Shown here piece by piece: positions 481 to 21,106 of a DNA stretch of 21,106 bases (positions are counted from its first letter, which is position 1; every line of letters starts with the position of its first letter). The position numbers were made by a program, and so were the translations under genes. This DNA comes from a virus, in IMG/VR virus record IMGVR_UViG_3300002514_000113, positions 4,392 through 25,497 of that record; one strand, given 5' to 3'. A model generated the notes under the pieces. That model saw only the letters and a program-made list of their open reading frames with translations. It had not been told where the DNA came from and ran no database searches.

Positions 481-2343
481 CTATGCCAGGGCGCGTACAG
501 CCGCTTCGACCGCAGCGGGTTTCAGCGTAGCAGCTGTACCCACTCCAGCCGCAAGGGCTGTGACGAGAGAAGGATGGTCTGCAACTAGGCTTTTGATCAA
601 GCCCAAATCTTGTCCCATCTCCTTCTGCGACTTCCAATGAGCCGCATTCAAGTAGACGAGAGAACCAAGAACAGCGAGCCCCGCAAGCGGAACAGCCACT
701 GCTGCAGACGCAGTCTTCAACCCTGCACGAAGATCCATTGTCTCGTTCCGAAGAACCGCTTCTTTGATCTCTGGGTGGCTGAGCCCTTCGACAATCTCCG
801 GAATGGAGGTCATCACAGACTCTCGGTAGTCGGCATACCCATCTGCCAGCTTCTGCATAACACCAGGAGAGGTGTCGTGGCGAACCGGCTCGGGCGGATG
901 TTCGATGATCAGCATGGTGAGGCGTCGCCTGATCACGGGCTCACAGCACGACCTATGGCGTGCCATACCCAGCAGGGGACGAATCAGCGACATGATGGAG
1001 CTGAGCGGGTGACCGCCAGCCACGGGATGCATTCCTGTGGGTCTGCCCATGTACGGATTGAACGAGACGCGCCTGGCACTCAACTCGCGTGCCAAGGATC
1101 CCATTCCTCCGTGAGTCAGGCAGACACGCTGGTACTCCTCGGGACGAAGCACGATGCCTGCTCTGGTGGGCGCAGAGAGAGCCATCGACAGAGAAGGTGC
1201 TTGTGCCAGTCCGTCCAGCACACTGTCGGGGAGGGGCTTCTCATTCTGCTCGAGTCGAGTGAGCAGGTGAGACGGACCTGGAGGTAGCTGCTTCAGCATC
1301 TCTCCGATCTTCAGTCCCGCCTTCTTCACACGGAGCTCGAACATCTCATCTTCGATCTTCTTGGCGTTGTCGATCTCCTGGAGAGCTTCTGCCTCCGACA
1401 GGTGACTGCCCATGAAGGGCAGCTTGGAAATGAGCTTCTGGATGGGTGCGGCCTGCTTGACCACTCCAGCCGTCTTGGTCAGCTCATCCTCTCCGTAGTA
1501 GAGCTCTCCCCGCAGTGCTGACGGAAGCGCCAGGCCCTCTTTGGTGAACAGCCAGTACTTCTGGGAGCCGGAGGCGATCTTCGCCATCACGAACGCGGTC
1601 TTGTCTGCGCCGATGGTGACGAAGCTGTCGTCGAAGAACCGTGGCTTGTCGTTGTGGACGCAGCACTTCCTCCCGTCGGGGAGAATCTTGTTCATGCCGA
1701 ACTGGCGGTCCTTGTTGTTGACATGCTTGCAGTACTGGTGCCGAGTCTTCGCCCGATTGCCACAGATGCTGCAACGGTCGTCTGGCACCTTGCAGCCCAT
1801 CGACGTCATGGGGAAGTCGCCGGAGTTGATCCTCTCGATGAGACCCCAGGCTCCCTGTGCTCGACAGAGCTCGTGGTCCAGGTCGAAGATGACCTCGACG
1901 CGGTGCATCACTGGGTTCCACACCACCAGGCAGATGACCCCCAGCGTCTTGGAGGGGTCCTTGTTGGCGTGGTGCTGGAAGATGTGGGCCGTATAGAAGG
2001 TCGCGTACCCGTAGTTCAGCTTCTTGGCGAACGCCGTGCGTCCGGGCACATCGTCCAGGCCGTATGTCTGAAGCGCGGAGTGGCCATTGAGTAGCCCGTC
2101 CTCTGGGAAGGTGTCCCCGTTGATGTTGGAACCGTACACCTCCCAGGAACCCAAGGCGTTGTTCAGGACGTAGGTGTGTCCTGGCTTGGCGTCCATGTCC
2201 CTGATGTACCGCTGGACATCAGGGTGAAGCTGCCCCACCTGCGCCATCTTCGACATGCCTGCACGGCCAGGACGAACGATCTGTGTGAAGACCGAGCCCG
2301 TCCGGCTGTTCAAGCCGTCAAAGTGGAGCAGCTTCTCCATCAT
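481..2343 (-). CDS. Prohead-protease-like protein with Cys-rich insert and hydrophobic tail (620 aa)
   Basis: Likely head-maturation protease. The N-terminal third follows the layout of phage prohead serine proteases: SNINGD at residues 72-77, then a His pair (H124/H125) in a segment followed by a Leu-Gly-Val strand, then TSMGC with candidate nucleophile S181. Directly after comes a metal-site-like cluster: CSIC (C191, C194), C205, H207 and C227/C228. The middle (about 300-450) is charged and helical. The C-terminus (about 545-575) has a hydrophobic, membrane-like stretch, and the last 30 residues are Ala-rich. At 620 residues it is much longer than classical HK97-type proteases (about 200-250), so the rest may be a fused internal head protein. 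KTA occurs three times (ADKTAF, LTKTAG, GLKTAS). Two ATGs in tandem open the frame 2 nt after the upstream stop; the ribosome site is weak, and M30 is an alternative start. The catalytic assignment rests on motif order, not on a search. Confidence 0.72.
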   Translation of the reverse strand: MMEKLLHFDGLNSRTGSVFTQIVRPGRAGMSKMAQVGQLHPDVQRYIRDMDAKPGHTYVLNNALGSWEVYGSNINGDTFPEDGLLNGHSALQTYGLDDVPGRTAFAKKLNYGYATFYTAHIFQHHANKDPSKTLGVICLVVWNPVMHRVEVIFDLDHELCRAQGAWGLIERINSGDFPMTSMGCKVPDDRCSICGNRAKTRHQYCKHVNNKDRQFGMNKILPDGRKCCVHNDKPRFFDDSFVTIGADKTAFVMAKIASGSQKYWLFTKEGLALPSALRGELYYGEDELTKTAGVVKQAAPIQKLISKLPFMGSHLSEAEALQEIDNAKKIEDEMFELRVKKAGLKIGEMLKQLPPGPSHLLTRLEQNEKPLPDSVLDGLAQAPSLSMALSAPTRAGIVLRPEEYQRVCLTHGGMGSLARELSARRVSFNPYMGRPTGMHPVAGGHPLSSIMSLIRPLLGMARHRSCCEPVIRRRLTMLIIEHPPEPVRHDTSPGVMQKLADGYADYRESVMTSIPEIVEGLSHPEIKEAVLRNETMDLRAGLKTASAAVAVPLAGLAVLGSLVYLNAAHWKSQKEMGQDLGLIKSLVADHPSLVTALAAGVGTAATLKPAAVEAAVRALA

Positions 2344-4445: not shown

Positions 4446-5081
4446 ATGCAGACAGGCCTGATCTCGAAGCAGGATACCGCGGCGATTCTGGGGAAAGCAT
4501 GCCGCACTGTTGAGTGGTACGCCAACCGCGGATTCCTGTCCAGAGTGAAGCAGGGACGCCGTGTCTTCTTCACCTCTGAGGAAGTGTACCGGCTCAAGCG
4601 GGAGCTGGGAGAGGAAGGCCGTACCGACCCAGAGATGGCCGCTCTCCGCAGCAGGGTCAAGAAGCTCGAGCTGGATGTCTCCTTGCTGCTCCGCCTCCTG
4701 GAGGCTCGCCGACATGTTGATCTCACCTCTGGAGAGCTGGAACAACTCGAACTTCGTGCCCGCACAGAGACAGCCTGGTCCCTGCCATTGGTGGAGTCCT
4801 GGCACGCAGTGCTCATGTCCCTCGAGGACTCCGATCTCAAACGGCTGCCTGTCGGAAGCTGGAAGAGCTTCAATGCGCTGGCCACGAACATCCTCGACGC
4901 TCTTCGGAACAGCGACGAATGGGCTACGAGCCTACAAGTCCAGCGACTGGCCTCGATGATGGCCACGGCGCGACGGCACCTGCGTGCCACCGTGTTGTGC
5001 GGAGATGAGCTGGGCCGGACGCACGAGGAGCTCTTCGGGGAGCCCCCGGACCTGAAAGAGGAACTCTTCGCTCTGCTCTAG
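4446..5081 (+). CDS. Excisionase/MerR-type helix-turn-helix DNA-binding protein (211 aa)
   Basis: Probable transcription regulator or DNA-bridging protein. Residues 6-52 fit the short winged-helix HTH of the excisionase/MerR group: ISKQDTAAILG (helix 1 and turn), CRTVEWYANRGFL (recognition helix) and KQGRRVFFTSEEV (wing, then start of the next helix). Residues 62-90 (ALRSRVKKLELDVSLLLRLL) have heptad-like spacing and probably form a dimerising coiled coil. The C-terminal half is helical and unassigned, and it lacks a recognisable MerR effector domain. It is a single plus-strand gene set between minus-strand virion genes. Its TAG stop overlaps the terminase TAG in the palindrome CTAG at 5078-5081, and its start is divergent from the 305-residue gene. 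This position favours control of the flanking late genes, or autoregulation. Confidence 0.75.
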   Translation: MQTGLISKQDTAAILGKACRTVEWYANRGFLSRVKQGRRVFFTSEEVYRLKRELGEEGRTDPEMAALRSRVKKLELDVSLLLRLLEARRHVDLTSGELEQLELRARTETAWSLPLVESWHAVLMSLEDSDLKRLPVGSWKSFNALATNILDALRNSDEWATSLQVQRLASMMATARRHLRATVLCGDELGRTHEELFGEPPDLKEELFALL

Positions 5082-6820
5082 GCCGCCTGCCTCTCCTGGC
5101 TCGGAGTGATGATGTCCGGCCTGGGGTACTCGGGCATGCTTGCCAGCAAGCAGTAGATGATCGAGTGGAAGGTGTCGTCGGTGGTGCCCGGCGCCTTCAT
5201 GAACTGGTTGGCGTTCCTGCGCTCGTTATACTCACTGAAGATGTTCAGCATGTCCCTGGAGAAGGGATCCTCGAAGTCTTCCCAGCATGGGAACTGCAGA
5301 ACGCCTCCACGCTTGATGGCGGCGAACACGTCTGCCATGACCTCTGTACGGTTCACTAGCCAGCGGCGTAGGCCATCGTCCCAGGTCACCTTCTTGCGAG
5401 GAGCTGCGTACTGGTAGCGGAACAGTCGCTGGTGTCCGAAGGTACGGAGCAGGTCGTCGTTGGGCCACCAGCCACCACCGAAGTCGACCCCGATACGGCG
5501 TACACGCCAAGCACGACAGATCTTCTTGATGATGGCGATCTGTCTGTCCGGTTCCGCGTCCTGCCCCACAAAGCGGTGTACGAAGAAGATCGTGAACTTG
5601 CCGTCGATGTACGCACCCAGCGTCAGGACTGTGAAACTGTTCTCTCCACCAGCACCCCAGTCGACCCCCGCGTAGACGGGGATGTTGGCCAGGCCCTTCA
5701 TCAGGTCCTTCATGACATCGGGGTTCGACATCTGGATCTTGGGGTTGCAGCAGTCGATGACCTCCTGCCTGGTCAGGGGCCGCGTACCTGTGTCGAAAGA
5801 GAGACCCAGGACCTCGTTGTTGAACCGGGGCCGCGGGTAGTGCTCGTACTTGTCGAGAATCTCGGGCCAGCTGACCCAAGGCACCATCAGCTGAGGGATG
5901 CGGAAGCCCTCGAAGGGCTCAGCCGTCTTCGGCTTTTGCATCGACGCCCATCGAGCCTTCTCGTGCATCGGGTTGATGAGCTTGTGGCACTTCGAGCACG
6001 AGAGGCCGTGCGGCTCGATGTTCTTCTCTCCAAGCACGTTCCAGAACCAGGGGGAGTGCCGCTCGCACGGCACCACCCACTCGTTGGCTGTGGACATGTT
6101 CGCCCAGTAGTACTCGATGGTGTTGTCGAGCGACTTCGGGGTGCCTGAGAAGCGGAGCAGCTTGTAGGGGGAGTGCGAAGCACACTCGAGGATGACCGGG
6201 ATGTGGTCGATGTAGATGTCCTGGATCTCGTCCAGAAGGATCATGTCCGCGGGGATGCCACGAGTACGGTCAGCGTTATGGAACGCGTACCGGAGAGTGA
6301 TCTTGCTCCGGTTCAGGAACTGCTTGAGCATCACGGAGTCAGCGATCTTCTGATCTGTCCAGACCTTCAGGATGTCGCTGGTCTCCATGGGGTCCTTCAG
6401 CCGGTCACGACTGAAGGTGCGTGTCTGATCCTGCGAGGGAGACACGAAGAGGATGTTGAAGCCAGGGAGGATGCAGGCGTACGCCAGGCAGATGTTGCCC
6501 AGCGACGTGCTCTTCTCGACCTGGCGGCCGCACTTCAGCAGTACCCGACGGGACTGCGTGTTGTAGATGGGCTTGAGGTACCTCCGCTCTGCGAAGGAGA
6601 AGTTCTCCATTCGCGGAGGCTTCCCTTCCTCAGTGACACGCACGGTGATCCCGAACTCCGCGAAGTCCGTGGGCCGCGCGAAGTAGACCTCATCCCCTGC
6701 AACTTTGAGGGTATTGGAGAAGAGAGCCCCCTTGGGGGGCTCGAAGTCCGTGAACCTGTTTCTCTGGGCTCGAATCATCTCTCCGAAAACCGCCGATGTC
6801 GGTGGGATAAGGTCCAGCAA
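5078..6820 (-). CDS. terL: Terminase large subunit, GpA-like
   Basis: DNA-packaging motor: an ATPase that drives DNA into the prohead plus a nuclease that cuts concatemers. Numbering from the TTG at 6820 (580 aa): Walker A-like GRQVEKST at 98-105, Walker B ILLDEIQD with D197/E198, coupling motif SGTP at 225-228, a zinc-site-like set C252, H255, C275, C278 (LSCSKCHK), then the RNase H-like nuclease with D387 (GVDWGAGG), D446 (GVDFGGG) and D548/D549 with H552 (DDTFH). The length is normal. The start is uncertain: the frame is open to a TTG at 6865, while ATG 6778 is the first ATG. A candidate -10 box at 6836-6831 would start transcription near 6824, which favours 6820 or 6778. The gene converges with the HTH gene, and no small terminase is recognised nearby. 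Confidence 0.93.
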   Translation of the reverse strand: MLDLIPPTSAVFGEMIRAQRNRFTDFEPPKGALFSNTLKVAGDEVYFARPTDFAEFGITVRVTEEGKPPRMENFSFAERRYLKPIYNTQSRRVLLKCGRQVEKSTSLGNICLAYACILPGFNILFVSPSQDQTRTFSRDRLKDPMETSDILKVWTDQKIADSVMLKQFLNRSKITLRYAFHNADRTRGIPADMILLDEIQDIYIDHIPVILECASHSPYKLLRFSGTPKSLDNTIEYYWANMSTANEWVVPCERHSPWFWNVLGEKNIEPHGLSCSKCHKLINPMHEKARWASMQKPKTAEPFEGFRIPQLMVPWVSWPEILDKYEHYPRPRFNNEVLGLSFDTGTRPLTRQEVIDCCNPKIQMSNPDVMKDLMKGLANIPVYAGVDWGAGGENSFTVLTLGAYIDGKFTIFFVHRFVGQDAEPDRQIAIIKKICRAWRVRRIGVDFGGGWWPNDDLLRTFGHQRLFRYQYAAPRKKVTWDDGLRRWLVNRTEVMADVFAAIKRGGVLQFPCWEDFEDPFSRDMLNIFSEYNERRNANQFMKAPGTTDDTFHSIIYCLLASMPEYPRPDIITPSQERQAA

Positions 6821-6839
6821 TGGAAGATATACCTTACCC
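6804..6839. promoter_or_regulatory. Inverted repeat with back-to-back TAAGGT boxes between terL and the accessory operon
   Basis: GGGATAAGGT (6804-6813) is mirrored by ACCTTACCC (6831-6839), which reads GGGTAAGGT on the minus strand. The two arms therefore point toward each other and give a TAAGGT (TANNNT-type -10) on each strand, 17 bp apart. Setting the last T at -7 puts the plus-strand start at 6820, exactly the A of the ATG of the 125-residue gene. It puts the minus-strand start near 6824, just before the TTG at 6820 of the terminase. No -35 is evident. It could be a divergent promoter, an operator for a dimeric repressor, or a site for the phage's own RNA polymerase. Confidence 0.45.
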
Positions 6840-7197
6840 TTCGCCACGTCTGAAGTGGCTGGCAAGCATGCTGCAGGCCCTACTCCGGACAGACGACCGC
6901 TGGTATACCGCGGACGTCGTTGATCACGAGGGGGATCCTCTCCGCAAGACCTTCGTCCTCCGGTGTCGGAGGAGGGTAGAGGATGAGTCCTGGGTACCGC
7001 TGCAGAGGTTCATCCGCAGTTGGGCACACCAGAACGATTGCTCCACCAAGAACATCCGCAGGTACGCGGGTCATGTGGAGATGGATCTGTACATCAAGTA
7101 CTTGGACAGACCGTCGGACTTCTCCCCGTGGGAGGAGCTGCCGGCAGGGGAGAAGAGATGGCGCGCAGCGAACGAACGACTGAAGGCACAAGGATGA
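6820..7197 (+). CDS. Uncharacterised small protein, first gene of accessory operon (125 aa)
   Basis: Not recognised. The ATG at 6820 coincides with the start site predicted from the TAAGGT box, so the mRNA may be leaderless; no ribosome site precedes it. An internal ATG at 6868 (M17) is the alternative and would avoid overlap with the terminase frame. The protein is basic to neutral, rich in Trp and Arg, with an amphipathic helix near the N-terminus (LKWLASMLQALL) and alternating strands and helices after it. It shows no signal peptide or membrane segment. Its stop overlaps the next start as ATGA, which ties it to the operon that carries RNase HII. Confidence 0.6.
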   Translation: MEDIPYPSPRLKWLASMLQALLRTDDRWYTADVVDHEGDPLRKTFVLRCRRRVEDESWVPLQRFIRSWAHQNDCSTKNIRRYAGHVEMDLYIKYLDRPSDFSPWEELPAGEKRWRAANERLKAQG

Positions 7198-7463: not shown

Positions 7464-8073
7464 CGGCCTACGTCACGACTACACGCTGCTCTCCTCCCTG
7501 CCCGCCCGCTACAAGGTGGCAGGAGTCGATGAGGTAGCCCTGGGCCCGTTGGCAGGCCCCATCGTTGCTTGCGCCATCGTGTTCCCAGCAGAGCACCTAC
7601 CCCTCCAGGGGGTCACCGACAGCAAGCAGCTCTCCCACCACAAGATGGACCAGCTGTTCGAGGACATCCTCGACAGGTGCACCGACTACGGCCTTGGGGT
7701 CGTGGAGTCCGATGAGATCGACAAGGTAGGTCTCGGGGAAGCCCACAAGCGGGTGCTCCACCGAGCTCTGCAGCAGCTCGAGTACACGCCCGACCACACC
7801 TACGTCGACGGGGACAAGTACATCCGTCGGCTGGGTGACGTCGAGTTCGTGGTGAAAGGGGACGCACGCATCTGGATCGTCGGAGCTGCGTCCATCGTCG
7901 CCAAGGTCGAGCAGAAGCGGCTCATGGAGGGCTACCACGAGAGGTGGCCACGGTACGGGTTCGACTCCCACGCCGGCTACGGAACCAAGAAGCACCTGGA
8001 GGCCCTGAGGGTCTACGGGCCTTGCCCCATCCACCGACGGGCCTGCCGGCCTGTTCGAGAGGCGGAACGATGA
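7429..8073 (+). CDS. rnhB: Ribonuclease HII homologue with altered active site (214 aa)
   Basis: RNase HII normally cuts RNA in RNA-DNA hybrids and at single ribonucleotides in DNA. The fold is clear throughout: AGVDEVALGPLAGP (31-44), DSKQLS (64-69), EIDKVGLGEA (96-105), YVDGD (125-129), VKGDA (142-146), AASIVAKVEQKR (153-164), AGYGT (182-186) and CPIHRRACRPV (199-209). The length is usual for the family. Compared with the known motifs, D34, E35 and D127 and the substrate-sensing Tyr (Y184) are present. However, the GRG motif reads ALG (A37, L38, G39), and the fourth carboxylate, Asp in AKVxRD, is Lys (K163, codon 7915-7917). Activity may be changed or lost. The start at 7429 has GGAG seven bases upstream and overlaps the preceding gene by 35 nt. 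The stop overlaps a downstream ATG. It belongs to the plus-strand accessory operon. Confidence 0.92.
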   Translation: MAIPRRRLKKPDGLRHDYTLLSSLPARYKVAGVDEVALGPLAGPIVACAIVFPAEHLPLQGVTDSKQLSHHKMDQLFEDILDRCTDYGLGVVESDEIDKVGLGEAHKRVLHRALQQLEYTPDHTYVDGDKYIRRLGDVEFVVKGDARIWIVGAASIVAKVEQKRLMEGYHERWPRYGFDSHAGYGTKKHLEALRVYGPCPIHRRACRPVREAER

Positions 8074-13878: not shown

Positions 13879-15330
13879 CTAGCCCGTAGTAGCTTTCTTC
13901 GAGTTCATCGTATTCAGTGCCAGAAGGCCTGCTCCTGCGGAGCCCTTCACTGAAGCCAGTGATGCGACATCGGTGGGGACAAACACCGAAAGTGACGCTA
14001 GCAGACTGGCCAGGATGCCCTTCAACACATCGCCCTTGACGAGTGGATGTTCTCCAGCCGCCAGCTTGACCCTAGGACCCGGTCCCAGGTCAACATCAAT
14101 CCCGATCCCCTCTGATCCTACCTGGAACTTCGGGGCCTTCACGATGACCTTGGTGTCGCTCTTAACGGTGACCTTGTTCGTTCCCAGGAGGAGCGCTTCC
14201 GTATCGGACTTCAGCTCCATGTCCTTGGCAGCATGGAGAGTAGCGGTGTCCGCAGTGGTCACCGACCAAGCAGCCTGCGCGGTCCAGGACACCTCACCCT
14301 CCTTGGTGACGTACATGTTGACTCCGACTACTCCTGCGTCCTCGCCGCTACCCGACGTGTTGCTGCTCGTGCTGAACCCGAGCACCGGGTTCGCCGTACC
14401 GGCCTTGTCCAGTACGAGCTCTACATCACCCTTCTCCTCGGTAGTGAACTGCACCGAGGTGGTCCCTCCGGAAGTGACCAGGGCAACAACGATTCCCTCA
14501 CCGGCAACGAGCGCCGCCAGGAGGTCCTGTAGCTCCGTCAAGTCGTCGGCATCACCGCTGAACGTGAGAGTCTGCTTGGCCTTCTTGTCTCCCTCGATTG
14601 TCCTCTCGAAGATCAGGGTCTTGCCGTTCAGAGCCCAGGACGATCCCTTCAGGGTCGCCTCTGCCTTCGCAGATAGCCCTGGTCCTGATGACACCTCGAG
14701 GCTCACCACTGGATCAGACCGCCCACCTCCCTGGTGCCCGAAAATGAGCGTCGCGGTGGGGCTCGGGTCGTCTGCCAGCTCCTTGGCCAACAGCCGTACC
14801 CGGGTAGGCCTGTCACCTGTGGTCGTAGTCTCGTCCCGGTCCACCTCCCACAAGAAGTCACCTGCGAAGGAGTGCAGCGAGTAAGCCTCACAGATGTCGC
14901 GGATGATGTTCCCTACCGGGAGGTACATCCTCTGGGCCAGTGGCGTCGACTGGATCTGAACGATGCCTCCTCGGTGCAGGAACACGCAGTTCTTGTCCCG
15001 AGTGGCGATGTAGATGTCTCCGGGGTTCATGTTGGGGCGAGCTGCCCTGAAGGACCCCTCCTTGTTCCACATCCCGCCGAACCCGAGCACGAACGGCTTG
15101 CTGCCTGGCTCACTCGACTTGCACACCCACACGGGGCAGCCCACCTCCGGCATCACGGAGATGCCCTCCCCAGAGAACTGGTGCAGGTACGGAGAGGACC
15201 AGGCGATGTCCAGGTACCGCCGGTAGGAGAACTGCGTAGCGATGTCCACGGTGAACTTGGTCATGTTCACGTTGATGATCATCCCGCTCTCAATGACGGG
15301 ATCTACGAGTGATCGATCAGCGCGGCTCAT
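13879..15330 (-). CDS. Baseplate spike / central puncturing protein, OB-fold plus beta-helix-like tail (483 aa)
   Basis: Probably the tip of a contractile-type tail, comparable in layout to gpV/gp5-like spikes. The N-terminus (about 15-95) is strand-rich with MPEVGCPVWVC, like the OB-fold part of spike proteins. The centre is low in hydrophobics and rich in Gly, Ser and Thr (for example TSSNTSGSGEDAG). From about 355 onward there are repeated short Val/Lys strands (NKVTVKSDTKVIVKAPK, VGSEGIGIDVDLG), as in a trimeric beta-helix spike. It ends in an Ala/Leu-rich segment near 435-455. The start ATG at 15330 overlaps the upstream gene by 14 nt with GGAG before it. If correct, the phage is probably a myovirus. 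Identification is from architecture rather than a strict motif. Confidence 0.65.
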   Translation of the reverse strand: MSRADRSLVDPVIESGMIINVNMTKFTVDIATQFSYRRYLDIAWSSPYLHQFSGEGISVMPEVGCPVWVCKSSEPGSKPFVLGFGGMWNKEGSFRAARPNMNPGDIYIATRDKNCVFLHRGGIVQIQSTPLAQRMYLPVGNIIRDICEAYSLHSFAGDFLWEVDRDETTTTGDRPTRVRLLAKELADDPSPTATLIFGHQGGGRSDPVVSLEVSSGPGLSAKAEATLKGSSWALNGKTLIFERTIEGDKKAKQTLTFSGDADDLTELQDLLAALVAGEGIVVALVTSGGTTSVQFTTEEKGDVELVLDKAGTANPVLGFSTSSNTSGSGEDAGVVGVNMYVTKEGEVSWTAQAAWSVTTADTATLHAAKDMELKSDTEALLLGTNKVTVKSDTKVIVKAPKFQVGSEGIGIDVDLGPGPRVKLAAGEHPLVKGDVLKGILASLLASLSVFVPTDVASLASVKGSAGAGLLALNTMNSKKATTG

Positions 15331-15997: not shown

Positions 15998-16722
15998 CGC
16001 TTCCTCCTGCGGGACACTGGCGTGTCGAAGGCAGTGCGGAGCTCCGTCCCTGCCTTCCTGCCGCGTCGGTAGTTCCCGTACGACCCGAGGCCTCCAAGCA
16101 CACCACCCACCGTTGTCTGCGTGATCAGGGAGGACACAGCACTCTGGGCGGGGCCCCGAAGGATCTCTGCCTGAGCAGGTGTCAGCGCGTCCAGGGTCTT
16201 GAAGGCAGGCACTGGGTGGCCAGCCATGGAAGAGATAGGGGCGCGGTCAGCAAACCACTGGAGAACCTTCCGCCCTCGATCGTCCAGAGGCACAGGCGCC
16301 CCAGAGATCTGCGCCTGGTCCAGGATCGCCTTGGCTCTGCGCCCCTTGGGAATGCCAGAGAGCCTGCCCCACACGCCCTTCACGGCGGAGGCAGCTCCTC
16401 CCACCGCCTTCCCGCGAACGCCCTTGCCCTGCTGCACTCCCATGATCCCGCCGTACAGGGCGGACATGAGGGAGGGCACAAGAATGGCGCCGCCGACTGT
16501 GCCTCCAGCGACACCCAGGTTCCGAACCAGCTTGTGGTACTTCTCGCTCTCTCTTTCTGCCTCAGCAGTCGCTGCGAGACGAGAGAGCGCTGCCCCCGTC
16601 GGGTCCGCTCCAGCTATGAGCCCCTCGCCGGCGTCACGCAGCTTCCCAGAGAAGGAGTCCTCCGCTTGTGCTGCTTCTTTGATAGCGGCCGTCAGCCAGA
16701 GAGCGTAAGGATCAGTACGCAT
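15994..16722 (-). CDS. Gly-rich hydrophobic protein, possible membrane or ejected protein (242 aa)
   Basis: Not recognised. The ATG at 16722 overlaps the end of the RNA polymerase gene by 11 nt and has AAGGAG at good distance; the open frame upstream of this lies over the polymerase gene. Residues 69-95 form a Gly-rich hydrophobic stretch (GVAGGTVGGAILVPSLMSAL), and a second one lies near 200-218 (TVGGVLGGLGSYG), which fits membrane insertion. The rest is Ala-rich and basic, ending SRRRKR. It starts MRTDPYALWLTAAIKEAAQ, with the KEA motif common in this genome. The Gly-zipper-like segments resemble those in the proteins at 2346-3493. Possibly a pilot or membrane-contact virion protein, by inference. 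Confidence 0.68.
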   Translation of the reverse strand: MRTDPYALWLTAAIKEAAQAEDSFSGKLRDAGEGLIAGADPTGAALSRLAATAEAERESEKYHKLVRNLGVAGGTVGGAILVPSLMSALYGGIMGVQQGKGVRGKAVGGAASAVKGVWGRLSGIPKGRRAKAILDQAQISGAPVPLDDRGRKVLQWFADRAPISSMAGHPVPAFKTLDALTPAQAEILRGPAQSAVSSLITQTTVGGVLGGLGSYGNYRRGRKAGTELRTAFDTPVSRRRKR

Positions 16723-19700
16723 AAGGTTTCTCCTTCGTCCCGAGCCCGAACTCCTTGCCGTAGACCATCGCAGGAACAGGGTGCGTGCCGTGAATATTGC
16801 TCTCCCACCCCTGTGCAGCACCATCAAGAACTGTCGCAGAGAGGTGCTCGAACTGCATTCTAGCTAGCCAGTCCTCCTGCATGAGGAGAGGTACCTGGTT
16901 GATTCCTCGAAGGATCGGCTCGTGCTCCGCGTGCTTCTTGCCGGCCTTCACCAGGTCTCGATTCTCTCGGACCAGTGCTGATGCAGGCACGATGTCGCCT
17001 CGCAAGAAGTTCGTATCGCCTGGATCCTGCACGCTGGTGAGGTCTGTGAGCGACCTCACCACAACTTCCATGTTGCGCCTCTTGACCGGCCCCACCTGCC
17101 GGTAGGCGCCGTACATCTCGTCAACCAGGTGGTTGCGTACCTTGTCCATGCTCGACACGTTGAGCAATTCTCGGGGGTTGACCGGCCCACTGCTCAAGGC
17201 CTGTCCCGCGGACACCTTGACGGCCTGGCCTTTCGACGCCTTGCTCACATGCGCTGACAACTTCCGGTTGCCCGGAATGTAGTGCTCCACTGACGTCGGG
17301 TTCCTCTTCTTGTCCTGCCCGGTCACTGTGACTCGCCAACCTCCTGCGGGGTCTGCACGCACCCCGCCCTTGGAGATCTTCCCGTTCACCTCGGAGAGGG
17401 TCGCCGAGCCCTTCAGCGTCTCTGGCATGCTCAACAGCTGCTGCAATCGTGCGAAGTCACTCACCCGAGTGGTGTCCTTGTCCGTGACAACTCCTCCGGT
17501 GTGGAAGCTCTTCATCGACAGGTTGACCGCGGGCTCTCCCACAGCCTGGGCAGCGATGGTCCCTACGTTGACACCCAGGGATGGGTTGTTGCCCTTCTCG
17601 TCCAGTCCGTAGCACTTGGCGCACATGCCCTCACGCGACTCGCACTTCAGAGGAGAGCGCACCACCAGGCGAGCCGTCTTGGCGTTTCGCATGGACGACA
17701 GGATCTCCGGCGTCAGCAGCGTTCCTGCCGGGAAGCTCTTCTTGTGCGCCGAAGCAGATGCCGCCAGGTACCGATCATGGATCTCTGGGTCATCCACTCC
17801 CATGGCAACACCACCTGAGGTGCCACAGTCATTCTCGGTGATGAGCTGGTTCATGGTCGTGTTGACGACCCTCTTGGTCAAAGCGCCGGGCTCAGAGGCC
17901 CCGACCACCTTCGAGAGCGTGCCCATCCGTGCACCAGACAACGACGCCCAGTACTCCGGAGTGGAGAGGCCCTCAGAGTAGCTCCGCTTGATGGGGATGG
18001 GTACGGGCTTGCCGTCGGTACCGTTCACCAGCACAGGCGCGATGGTCATCTGCTTGAACTGGTCCCAGTCCCCACGAGCTCCTGACCGAACCATGGCGTA
18101 GACACGGTTCTGGCTGTTCTCCATCCCCGCCTTGCCCTTCTTGTCGAGCTCGCGGATAGCGCCCCTGTACGCCTTGATCACAGCATCGTTCTGACTCATG
18201 CCCGCAGCACGCAACTCGGCGACGCGACGGTCAGTGCGTTCGAGCACTGGATCCCGCATGGCGTTCTGCGAGGCGAAGTCATCCAAAGAGAAGGAGAAGC
18301 CAGAGTCGTAGGTGTGCCTGTTCCCCATCTGGTTCATCTTGTTGACGGCATTGGCGAAGTCCTTGGGGTCGTTCTTGGCCATGTCGGTCAGGAACTTCTC
18401 CGCCCCCTGCGAGTCCATCAGGAACCCCGGGTCCGTGAGGATCTGCTGCTGGTACTTCGAGCCCGGCTTCACGGCCTTGGACAGCATGATCCTGCCGGCG
18501 GTCGTCTGAATCGTGGGAGCTGCGAACTTGAACCGGCTGCCAGCACCGACGGTGATCTGGTCGTCGATGTTGATCTTCCCGTCGTCGAACGCCTTCAGGA
18601 CATCCTTCATGGTGTCGAAGCGGTGGCCAGTCCTCTTGCCCTTCTTGCTGAGCTGGTACACCCCCAGCTGCCCCTCGTGCTGCGGGTACTGGATGATGCG
18701 ACCAGTGGAGGGGTTGAACAGGTTCTGTGAGGGCATCATCCCTCGTGCTTCTGCCACGGCCTCGTGCCCCAAGGGCACGAACACCGACATTGTGTCTCCG
18801 TCGAAGTCAGCTCCATAGCCCTTGGTGATCAGCGGATGTACCTGGATGGCTTTGCCTCCTACCACCTTCGGGCGGAAGGCCATGATCCCGTGCTTGTGCA
18901 GCATGGGGTCGCGCTTGACGATCACAGGACGCTTGTCGGCTACCTGAGCCAACGCCTTGTCCGTGATAGGTGCGCCCTCCTTGATGGCTCGCTGAGCCTG
19001 GAGAGGTGTGTAGCCAAAGCCCTTCACCATCTCTCGGACCACGAAAGGCTTGTAGAGCTCCATCGCTGCCTTCTTCGGCAGTCCGATCTCGTCCAGGTGC
19101 ATGGAGTCCTCGGGGATGATGGTCCCCCGCATGGACAGGTCCTGCTTCCTCGAGATGATCTTGTCCTGGAAGTAGCCCTGCTTCGGAGAGGGACCTGCCA
19201 TGGTCTCCATGACTCCGCGATGGTGTCGCTGCCCCAGGTCGGCGCCGGTCATCGTCAGCGCCTTCAGCCCGTCGTACACCGCCGAGTGCATGGGCAGCAT
19301 CATGCTGTCCGGAGTGGCCTTGTCGGCGGACTTGACCTGGTCGTTCATCACAGACAGCGCGCGGTACAGCCCGTTGACGTCATCTGCGTTGAGGTCGCCG
19401 TTGTCCAGGACAGTCACCGGCCGCATGGACGGAGGCAGCACGGGGACGGCCTTGGTGGTGTAGGCGTCCGTTGCGGACATGTCCGCTTTCTTGAGCGCCT
19501 GGAGGTATCGGACACGGAGCCGGGCATGATTGAGCTTGCTCTTGCGTGCCGTCTTGAGGGTCTCCTCTGCCGCCACCAAGTCCGCGTTGACGTCTACCTT
19601 CTTGAGCGCATCGACGATGGCCTTGGGCCCTGTCTTGCCATCCAGGTCCTTCTTCCCCGCGATGATCTCCTTGATGTCTCCCTGCTTGACCCCGAGCAAC

Positions 19701-21106
19701 CCGGCAATGGGCTTCTCGAAAACCGGGTTGGGCATCGACTGCGAGAGCTCGAAGTGGCTCCACTTCTTGCCCTGGGATCCTCCGGTGACCGTCTCGTCAA
19801 ACAGGCCGCCCTTCTCCGGGCGCATGTCCTTGCCCCGGAACATCTTGGCAGCGTCCTTGAGCTCGCCGTTGCTCTTCTGCCGGACCTGCTGGTCGGTGAT
19901 GGGCCGCAGCTGCAGGTTGTTGCCGTCCTTGTTCACGTCGACACCCATGACGTTCAAGTAGCCCTTGAGCTTGTCGTAGGTGAACGGGATCTTCGGTGTG
20001 GGCAGCACCTCTCCGGATTGAAGAGCGATCCAGAGCTCGTCGTTCTTGTCCGACTTGAGCGTCTGCATCTCCCGCAGGTTGTGCCGTGCACCGTGCGACA
20101 GGAGGCCGTAGAGACCGAGAGCAGATACGGCCTGCCCGCCACGCTGTCCTCCGCCCTTGGGCGTCATGTTCATGGAGTAGGGGTTCCCCACTCCGCCAGA
20201 ACGCACGGTGGTCTTCTTCTCCACCTGGTGCCGGAGCTTGAGGAGGTACTGGTCTCCCAGCATTACCTTCCCGAGCTCCTTGCCAGAGGTGGGGTCGAAC
20301 AGGGTCTCTGTGTCCGTCAGACCTGCCTTGGCCAGCTCAGCCTTCACGTCCTTGGTGTAGTTCGGTGTCTTGTTCGGGAAGTTGTCCACCAGGAACGGAG
20401 AGCCCTGTGCCTTGGCGATCTTCCCTGCCGCCGTCTCCAGCACCTGCCCCAGGTTGATTCGGCCAGGGACTCCGTGGGGATTCAGCGCGATCTCTACGTG
20501 CTTCCCCTCCTTGGTGTGGGGCATCTCGTGGTCAGGAACGACCTTCGAGATGATCCCCTTGTTGCCGTGACGACCAACCAGCTTGTCGCCGATCTGTGCC
20601 GGCTCCAACGTCTTGACGTGTACCTCTACGTTGTTGCCTCGCTGAACGACGCGGACGACCTCTCCGGGGTAGCCCTTGGCCCACCGCACGGTTCTGTCTC
20701 TCTCGGACTTGACCATGGACTTCTTCAGCGACTGGAGCTTCTTCTGCTCGGTGGTGAACTCCTCCCGCTGCAGCTTCCCGATGATGATGTCGCCCTCGTG
20801 CACCACTGAGCCAGCCCGAACGATGCCCTTGTCGTCCAGCTTGTCTCTCTGCTCCGCAGTCAGGGCCTCCGTGGGTAGGTACGCCGTGAGCTTGTTCTTG
20901 CTCAGGATGGTGTTCCTGTCGACGGTCGCGCTGGGTCGGTACATGTGCTCGGACGTCAGCTTCTTGGCAGCACTGTCCGAGATGACGACCCCGTCCTCGA
21001 AGTTGTAGCCCTTGAAGGGCATGTAGGCCGTGGTGAGGTTCACTCCCAGGGCCAGCGTCCCCTCCTTGGAGAAGTTCGTGTCGGCGACGATCTGCCCCCT
21101 CTTGAC
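16712..21106 (-). CDS. rpoBC: Fused RNA polymerase beta-beta' subunit, 5' end outside window (at least 1464 aa)
   Basis: Multisubunit-type RNA polymerase catalytic chain. The frame is open to the right edge, so the N-terminal part of beta is missing; GTLALGVN upstream of the first GTG matches beta and shows that this GTG is not the start. Numbering from 21106, beta motifs come first: GYNFED (near 34-39), GDKLVGRHGNKG (near 172) and NPHGVPGRINLGQ. After the beta C-terminus (REMQTLKSD) the chain runs straight into beta': PEKGGLF (near 432), the metal-binding ADFDGD (766-771, DNA 18794-18811), SGARG, EGLSTPEYW, the zinc-2 site (DCGT plus CESREGMCAKC) and the trigger loop VGEPAVNLSMKSFHTGG. The N-terminal beta' zinc-1 domain is absent: only a short GSQGKKW link follows PEKGGLF. 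The last codons overlap the next gene by 11 nt. It may transcribe phage late genes or be packaged in the virion. Confidence 0.96.
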   Translation of the reverse strand, partial: VKRGQIVADTNFSKEGTLALGVNLTTAYMPFKGYNFEDGVVISDSAAKKLTSEHMYRPSATVDRNTILSKNKLTAYLPTEALTAEQRDKLDDKGIVRAGSVVHEGDIIIGKLQREEFTTEQKKLQSLKKSMVKSERDRTVRWAKGYPGEVVRVVQRGNNVEVHVKTLEPAQIGDKLVGRHGNKGIISKVVPDHEMPHTKEGKHVEIALNPHGVPGRINLGQVLETAAGKIAKAQGSPFLVDNFPNKTPNYTKDVKAELAKAGLTDTETLFDPTSGKELGKVMLGDQYLLKLRHQVEKKTTVRSGGVGNPYSMNMTPKGGGQRGGQAVSALGLYGLLSHGARHNLREMQTLKSDKNDELWIALQSGEVLPTPKIPFTYDKLKGYLNVMGVDVNKDGNNLQLRPITDQQVRQKSNGELKDAAKMFRGKDMRPEKGGLFDETVTGGSQGKKWSHFELSQSMPNPVFEKPIAGLLGVKQGDIKEIIAGKKDLDGKTGPKAIVDALKKVDVNADLVAAEETLKTARKSKLNHARLRVRYLQALKKADMSATDAYTTKAVPVLPPSMRPVTVLDNGDLNADDVNGLYRALSVMNDQVKSADKATPDSMMLPMHSAVYDGLKALTMTGADLGQRHHRGVMETMAGPSPKQGYFQDKIISRKQDLSMRGTIIPEDSMHLDEIGLPKKAAMELYKPFVVREMVKGFGYTPLQAQRAIKEGAPITDKALAQVADKRPVIVKRDPMLHKHGIMAFRPKVVGGKAIQVHPLITKGYGADFDGDTMSVFVPLGHEAVAEARGMMPSQNLFNPSTGRIIQYPQHEGQLGVYQLSKKGKRTGHRFDTMKDVLKAFDDGKINIDDQITVGAGSRFKFAAPTIQTTAGRIMLSKAVKPGSKYQQQILTDPGFLMDSQGAEKFLTDMAKNDPKDFANAVNKMNQMGNRHTYDSGFSFSLDDFASQNAMRDPVLERTDRRVAELRAAGMSQNDAVIKAYRGAIRELDKKGKAGMENSQNRVYAMVRSGARGDWDQFKQMTIAPVLVNGTDGKPVPIPIKRSYSEGLSTPEYWASLSGARMGTLSKVVGASEPGALTKRVVNTTMNQLITENDCGTSGGVAMGVDDPEIHDRYLAASASAHKKSFPAGTLLTPEILSSMRNAKTARLVVRSPLKCESREGMCAKCYGLDEKGNNPSLGVNVGTIAAQAVGEPAVNLSMKSFHTGGVVTDKDTTRVSDFARLQQLLSMPETLKGSATLSEVNGKISKGGVRADPAGGWRVTVTGQDKKRNPTSVEHYIPGNRKLSAHVSKASKGQAVKVSAGQALSSGPVNPRELLNVSSMDKVRNHLVDEMYGAYRQVGPVKRRNMEVVVRSLTDLTSVQDPGDTNFLRGDIVPASALVRENRDLVKAGKKHAEHEPILRGINQVPLLMQEDWLARMQFEHLSATVLDGAAQGWESNIHGTHPVPAMVYGKEFGLGTKEKPYAY

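Follow-up and report, generated by a model that had tools for sequence, protein, structure and literature searches.

Phage RNA polymerases (RNAPs) related to the cellular enzyme are known so far in two forms, the cellular polymerase being shattered, as in phiKZ, or replaced by very divergent single chains, as in crAss-like phages, YonO and P23-45. In nearly all bacteria, beta and beta' are distinct proteins; fused polymerases occur in Helicobacter and Wolbachia, where they are bacterial enzymes with alpha and omega. In these rpoBC products, as in the phage locus described here, the beta C-terminus is joined to the beta' N-terminus (fusions cited in PMC7483510), but the present phage clade lies apart from the 22 bacteria sampled and has no zinc-1 cysteines. 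The vRNAP and nvRNAP of the jumbo phages phiKZ and AR9 resemble the RNAP described here in being phage-encoded, alpha-less and related to beta and beta', one form being packaged; however, they comprise four or more chains and two enzymes per phage and use no sigma (PMC7598289). This is the opposite architecture to a single 2,072-aa ORF, and the contrast with phiKZ-type split enzymes drawn in an earlier note on this DNA holds. The crAss-like gp66, YonO and P23-45 gp64/gp96 likewise carry both DPBB barrels in one chain, with P23-45 gp96 being a virion enzyme, but show little recognisable likeness to cellular subunits (PMC10770324), whereas the present RNAP can be aligned with almost the whole of beta and beta', with E ~1e-113 to bacterial beta'.

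Closer to this locus are the multi-subunit RNAP-encoding Caudovirales, mReC (Weinheimer & Aylward 2020, PMC7481178), which, like the present clade, are known from IMG/VR tailed-phage contigs, have beta and beta' recognisable by cellular models and an RNAP among virion genes, and form a clade apart from bacteria. In that paper, beta and beta' are handled as two subunits and concatenated, and fusion is mentioned for crAss-like phages only (PMC7481178). Among cultured phages, Salmonella phage Arash encodes gp206 (1,525 aa), which spans beta and beta' to just past the catalytic barrel, and gp216, which is the C-terminal half of beta'; gp206 is termed 'subunit beta' in the Arash paper, with the fusion not mentioned (PMC10585845). 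Vibrio phages D69 and D181 follow an Arash-like plan. In Arash and in D69, D181 and D148, as in the present phage, beta is joined to beta' and the portal gene lies directly upstream. Unlike the present chain, which is joined through to its end (~33% identity), theirs is split in beta' after the catalytic DPBB, D181 and D148 having an additional break next to a homing endonuclease, and their catalytic motif is AADYDGD rather than GADFDGD.

The window, that is, the whole stretch of 21,106 nucleotides that was analysed, covers positions 4392-25497 of a virus record of 34,755 bases. One open frame of 1,464 codons occupies 16712-21106 on the minus strand and runs off the right edge. The earlier note had read beta and beta' in this single uninterrupted frame and suggested extending it to the right; in the source record, the same frame reaches an ATG upstream, the whole ORF having 2,072 aa (L002:1104-7322), and the entire beta N-terminal half lies in frame beyond the window edge, where no stop or unrelated short gene interrupts it. 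The motifs named in the note (GRHGNKG, PEKGGLF, GADFDGD and SMKSFH) were all found. The features of the chain, in the order of translation, are as follows.

16712-21106, minus strand: fused beta-beta' RNA polymerase, residues 609-2072 of 2072 (ORF reading and Pfam); the gene extends past the right edge and starts with an ATG at record position 27321
20555-20575, minus strand: beta DPBB motif GRHGNKG, the active-site lysine region (sequence; alignment)
19913-19939, minus strand: beta/beta' junction (...LNVMGVDVNKDGNNLQLRPIT...), with a linker of a few residues only; the Bacillus beta C-terminal tail is absent after residue 1003 (alignment)
19706-19825, minus strand: place of zinc-1 after PEKGGLF, with no cysteines and a 25-residue four-cysteine loop missing (alignment to Bacillus beta'; cysteine survey)
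18911-18913, minus strand: Arg1340, kept, equivalent to E. coli beta' Arg425, the chief sugar-selectivity determinant (alignment; PMC7862312)
18794-18814, minus strand: catalytic loop GADFDGD, with the three Mg-binding Asp kept and Gly at the Asn458 position (alignment)
17612-17827, minus strand: zinc-2 domain, with C1702, C1763, C1770 and C1773 (cysteine survey in the alignment)
17501-17524, minus strand: trigger loop NLSMKSFH, with Asn at the Gln929 position and Met932, Phe935 and His936 kept (alignment)

The chain thus comprises a complete beta and a nearly complete beta' with almost no linker. Pfam domains follow in their natural order, Rpb2 domains 3 and 6 and then Rpb1 domains 1, 2, 3, 4 and 5 (E 2e-63 to 3e-4, with the matches to Rpb1 domains 1, 3 and 4 falling below curated cut-offs), and the terminase large subunit (TerL) and these Rpb2/Rpb1 matches are found on one contig. 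At the join, where most bacteria have two free termini, the end of beta passes almost directly into the start of beta' (VMGVDVNKDGNNLQLRPITDQQV). The greater part of the chain is covered by two AlphaFold models. For the window protein, residues 613-1812, which include both DPBBs, were modelled with a mean pLDDT of 87.8 and a pTM of 0.83, and the model aligns to bacterial beta' with a TM of 0.62; the N-terminal 611 residues of L018, the closest relative in the tree, gave a pLDDT of 92.6 and a pTM of 0.89 and align to the beta of solved bacterial RNAPs with a TM of ~0.8. Since solved beta' chains are matched over ~950 residues at E ~1e-113 and the confident fold model matches beta', chance similarity is excluded. 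In the predicted arrangement, the beta claw (lobe/protrusion, fork, DPBB-B and flap) would be joined head-to-tail to a beta' claw made of the clamp, DPBB-A, bridge helix, trigger loop and zinc-2.

The notion that assembly or sequencing joined two separate genes, a doubt also raised in the earlier note, draws on a single N, an ambiguous base within the RNAP gene that lies one base outside the window end. However, this position encodes a variable residue with the frame intact in the alignment with relatives, and independent metagenomes show the identical join. Because the join recurs in every relative examined, a sequencing error is rejected, and the probability left to an artefact is negligible.

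The fusion is widespread. Scanning with the window protein identified ten relatives with 34-48% identity to it, in each of which the fusion holds up to the limits of the contig, and a profile scan identified 79 loci. A first survey covered 92 viral loci, including four from isolate records; in 70, all four tested segments lay in one ORF. A second search used the beta N-terminus alone, thereby avoiding the bias of a query that names the catalytic motif; relatives of this part are encoded at 308 IMG/VR loci, 80 of which were listed, and in the 81 loci of the second survey (79 new and two from a separate search, with contigs overlapping between the two surveys) every chain was fused into beta' or ran off a contig end, 70 being complete. 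A maximum-likelihood tree of 103 rows, including 22 bacteria and built without archaea, eukaryotes, NCLDV, Helicobacter or Wolbachia, separated the phage RNAPs from the bacteria with 100% SH-aLRT and placed L018 nearest to the window protein (58% identity over core columns). In a minority clade to which Arash and the Vibrio phages belong, beta is joined to the first half of beta' and the second half is made separately; all seven sampled loci whose beta' C-half has a gene of its own fall into a single group with a support of 83. Given the survey and the tree placement of this split-beta' group, the ancestor of the clade appears already to have had beta joined to at least half of beta', its first part, although the root and the long branch of Cobetia phage Carin-5 and Yersinia phage GN1 make any order of events tentative. 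The fusion and zinc-1 loss described in the note were correctly read, but both traits are clade-wide and not peculiar to this phage.

Carin-5 and GN1 (L017, L203) have another RNAP type, which sits on a very long branch and is encoded by separate genes in reversed order, beta' before beta; in Carin-5, a sigma-factor gene is annotated just before the RNAP genes. At L076:15954-19679, a separate beta' C-half of 1,242 aa consists of the RNAP part and a ~600-aa extension. Eleven loci (L040, L048, L052, L074, L078, L086, L088, L089, L090, L092 and L095) have one to four inserts of ~300-500 aa in the RNAP ORF, placed at conserved catalytic positions, namely GDK/GRHGNKG, directly after ADFDG and the trigger loop; LAGLIDADG domains, in some cases with intein-splicing domains, were detected in the six loci scanned (L040, L048, L086, L088, L089 and L092), and the insert sites read as intein hot spots. 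In-frame TGA codons interrupt the RNAP gene in L059 (10999-11003 and 12811-12815) and L030 (12079-12083), one of those in L059 standing where the other relatives invariably have tryptophan; this hints at TGA=Trp recoding in L059, with two TGA there and one in L030 being too few cases.

Recent capture of the gene from a cellular host was rejected: identity to the best 80 cellular loci is at most 30%, the phage proteins form a separate clade and the gene does not differ in GC from the remainder of the phage. The scan of cellular genomes gave cellular rpoB/rpoC loci, at 27-30% identity, and thus pointed to no host or prophage.

This clade is probably that of the mReC phages, based on the same collection, the same kind of evidence and a shared source metagenome, 3300017989, which yielded two of the three named mReC examples and also the fused loci L013 and L049. 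The mReC sequence filter required NADxDGD, which the GADFDGD of the window would fail (PMC7481178); however, the nearest relatives, L018 and L212, have NADFDGD, and the glycine is therefore a local change inside the clade and not a ground for exclusion. The mReC phages have a major capsid protein of PF07068/VOG11186; on the present fragment, no capsid gene was identified. In the open literature, to which the search was confined, no paper was found that describes beta and beta' fully fused in a phage; the clade itself is probably already known as mReC.

The note's reading of the zinc domains is confirmed by the alignment, in which the 25 residues holding the four cysteines of Bacillus beta' are gone after PEKGGLF and the four zinc-2 cysteines are present. 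Across 62 aligned sequences, the zinc-1 cysteines are absent from 61 and zinc-2 is kept in 56. The zinc-2 cysteines are also lost in L010, L046, L063 and L087 (partly in L024/L041), and a few members therefore have neither zinc domain.

The active site differs from the bacterial one at two of the three universally conserved side chains that are able to contact the ribose 2'-OH, namely Arg425, Asn458 and Gln929 (PMC7862312). Arg425 is the dominant of these contacts, the N458S substitution alters selectivity only a few-fold, and Q929M lowers binding-step selectivity 30-fold (PMC7862312). R1340, at the Arg425 position, is invariant across the 62 aligned rows. The glycine noted in place of asparagine before ADFDGD is real, but such replacement is recurrent in the clade and is paired here with a change of Gln929 to Asn: of 91 loci, 73 retain Asn458 and 18 have Gly, Ala or Ser instead, requiring at least 11 changes on the tree, and within the 62 rows Asn at the Gln929 position is confined to the window protein, L063 and L087. 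Because the dominant Arg425 is kept and the N458S and Q929M effects are of these sizes, we predict a working RNA polymerase with a modestly altered substrate preference and not a DNA-making enzyme; the changes would leave Mg2+ catalysis normal and ribose contacts altered.

The partners of such a chain, which the note had suggested looking for, were sought in 29 records of relatives. Neither alpha (PF01193) nor omega (PF01192) scored above the Pfam cut-off in any of the 29, with control genomes positive in 13 of 14 and 14 of 14 cases, respectively, divergent alpha-like proteins being able to escape such models; alpha and omega genes were accordingly rejected as candidate partners over these cut-offs. 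A second RNAP, as in the phiKZ-style virion/non-virion pair, was rejected as well, with one RNAP of this type per record and no other in the 29. Ordinary sigma domains are patchy among the relatives' records by Pfam, and some of the weak matches constitute one family related to Arash gp010. When the 28 records >100 kb were searched with a model of this family, 22 proved to encode an orthologous sigma-like protein, with scores of 130-378 bits, ordinary sigmas from five bacterial genomes and one phage record scoring at most 70 bits; the gene was not found in the 34.7-kb fragment that holds the window, nor in seven other fragments <85 kb. The Arash copy matches sigma region 3 (E 1e-8) and, weakly, the end of region 2, and Arash and D69, the two such phages searched, both encode the orthologue. 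The family appears specific to the clade, covers regions 2-4 and occurs once per genome, e.g., in L185, L187, L190 (Arash gp010) and L192, and is caught weakly or not at all by Pfam sigma models. A sigma-like gene is thus found in most large relatives, and recognisable alpha and omega genes are absent.

A fused core could instead work as a hybrid that, once delivered or synthesised, recruits alpha, and perhaps sigma or omega, from the host. The sequence and fold of the beta half are still bacterial-like and might preserve a surface for binding alpha, and some records have no sigma-like gene. Against this, alpha genes are absent throughout the 29 records, the phiKZ/AR9 enzymes work without alpha (PMC7598289), and every host would need to supply a compatible alpha; we consider such a hybrid unlikely. 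In the preferred reading, an alpha-less enzyme guided by the phage's own sigma, the fusion would probably take over what the alpha dimer and omega do in assembly, and the sigma-like factor (regions 2-4) would probably direct the core to phage promoters.

The gene neighbourhood bears on when the enzyme acts. A portal-like gene homologous to Arash portal gp204 (L002:9415-11367; profile E 1e-136) lies upstream of the RNAP gene, and in 67 loci a portal gene precedes the RNAP gene on the same strand. Three further genes of the window belong to this context.

13879-15330, minus strand: baseplate-spike-like gene, its function being a reading of the sequence; homologues lie directly downstream of the RNAP gene in 52 relatives (median gap 4 bases)
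5078-6865, minus strand: terminase large subunit, downstream of the RNAP gene in 44 relatives
481-2343, minus strand: head-maturation-protease-like gene (phrog_18299, E 6e-6)

With the portal upstream and the spike-like and terminase genes downstream in relatives, the RNAP gene, judged by gene order, belongs to the block of virion genes, as has been described for mReC. Opposite this structural block, a ribonuclease HII gene is encoded at 7474-8073 on the plus strand (E 2e-31), with homologues opposite to the RNAP in 11 relatives. The product of 4446-5081 (plus strand), which weakly matches the small mad1 model of PADLOC and has a helix-turn-helix-like start, is probably a regulator rather than a defence gene.

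The evidence on particle content comes from Arash. In sucrose-gradient-purified particles, gp206 yielded 3,516 spectra, the most of all proteins and more than the capsid protein (spectra not being length-corrected), with 100% coverage; gp216 (beta'C) yielded 1,210 and the sigma gp010 yielded 467 (PMC10585845). The preparation contained 116 proteins, including helicases and ribonucleotide reductases, and the authors allow for cell carry-over (PMC10585845). The same breadth would fit a non-virion enzyme made after infection for middle or late genes and detected in Arash particles by carry-over, as would the late-operon position, which also suits a late-made protein. However, gp206 leads all proteins, including the capsid protein, in uncorrected spectra, most relatives share the location between the portal and spike-like genes, and each record has one RNAP, so that the first genes would need host RNAP if it were not packaged; a non-virion role is therefore judged quite unlikely.

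Virion proteins are often processed by phages, and the maturation-protease-like gene nearby could suggest that the chain is made fused and then cut into beta and beta', leaving a two-subunit mature enzyme. Yet the 100% peptide coverage of Arash gp206 should include the beta/beta' join, and the join offers almost no linker; we regard such cleavage as very unlikely.

The best explanation, which we hold to be fairly probable, is an alpha-less, sigma-guided, one-chain, bacterial-type virion RNA polymerase for early transcription. It is supported by the single frame and its domains, the two fold models, the clade-wide fusion, the lack of recognisable alpha and omega genes, the one RNAP per record, the shared sigma-like factor, the portal upstream and the Arash proteomics; against it stand the ~33% identity of the Arash RNAP, the separate gene for its beta'C and the carry-over allowed for by the Arash authors, as well as the finding of no sigma-like gene in the fragment that holds the window and the possible escape of divergent alpha-like proteins from Pfam models. 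The enzyme would be made late with the portal, baseplate and terminase and packaged in the particle, and, by analogy with the particle content seen in Arash, would enter with the DNA and transcribe the first genes. More tentatively, and with somewhat less than even confidence, we propose that a one-chain core and one phage sigma-like factor, free of alpha and omega and carried in the virion, has repeatedly relaxed Asn458, and here also Gln929, giving altered nucleotide-sugar selectivity in a widespread phage clade.

Compared with the shattered and the very divergent phage enzymes, this clade has kept a nearly bacterial polymerase and welded it into one chain, with the assembly subunits apparently dropped. 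The roles of alpha and omega, the dispensability of zinc-1 and sigma-dependent initiation by a one-chain enzyme thereby become testable, and the clade provides a natural set of Asn458/Gln929 variants for the study of dNTP rejection by RNA polymerases. Since the fused chain is present in hundreds of related environmental phage contigs, and a cultured relative has its own version in its particles, it offers a simple test of the minimum needs of a cellular-type polymerase.
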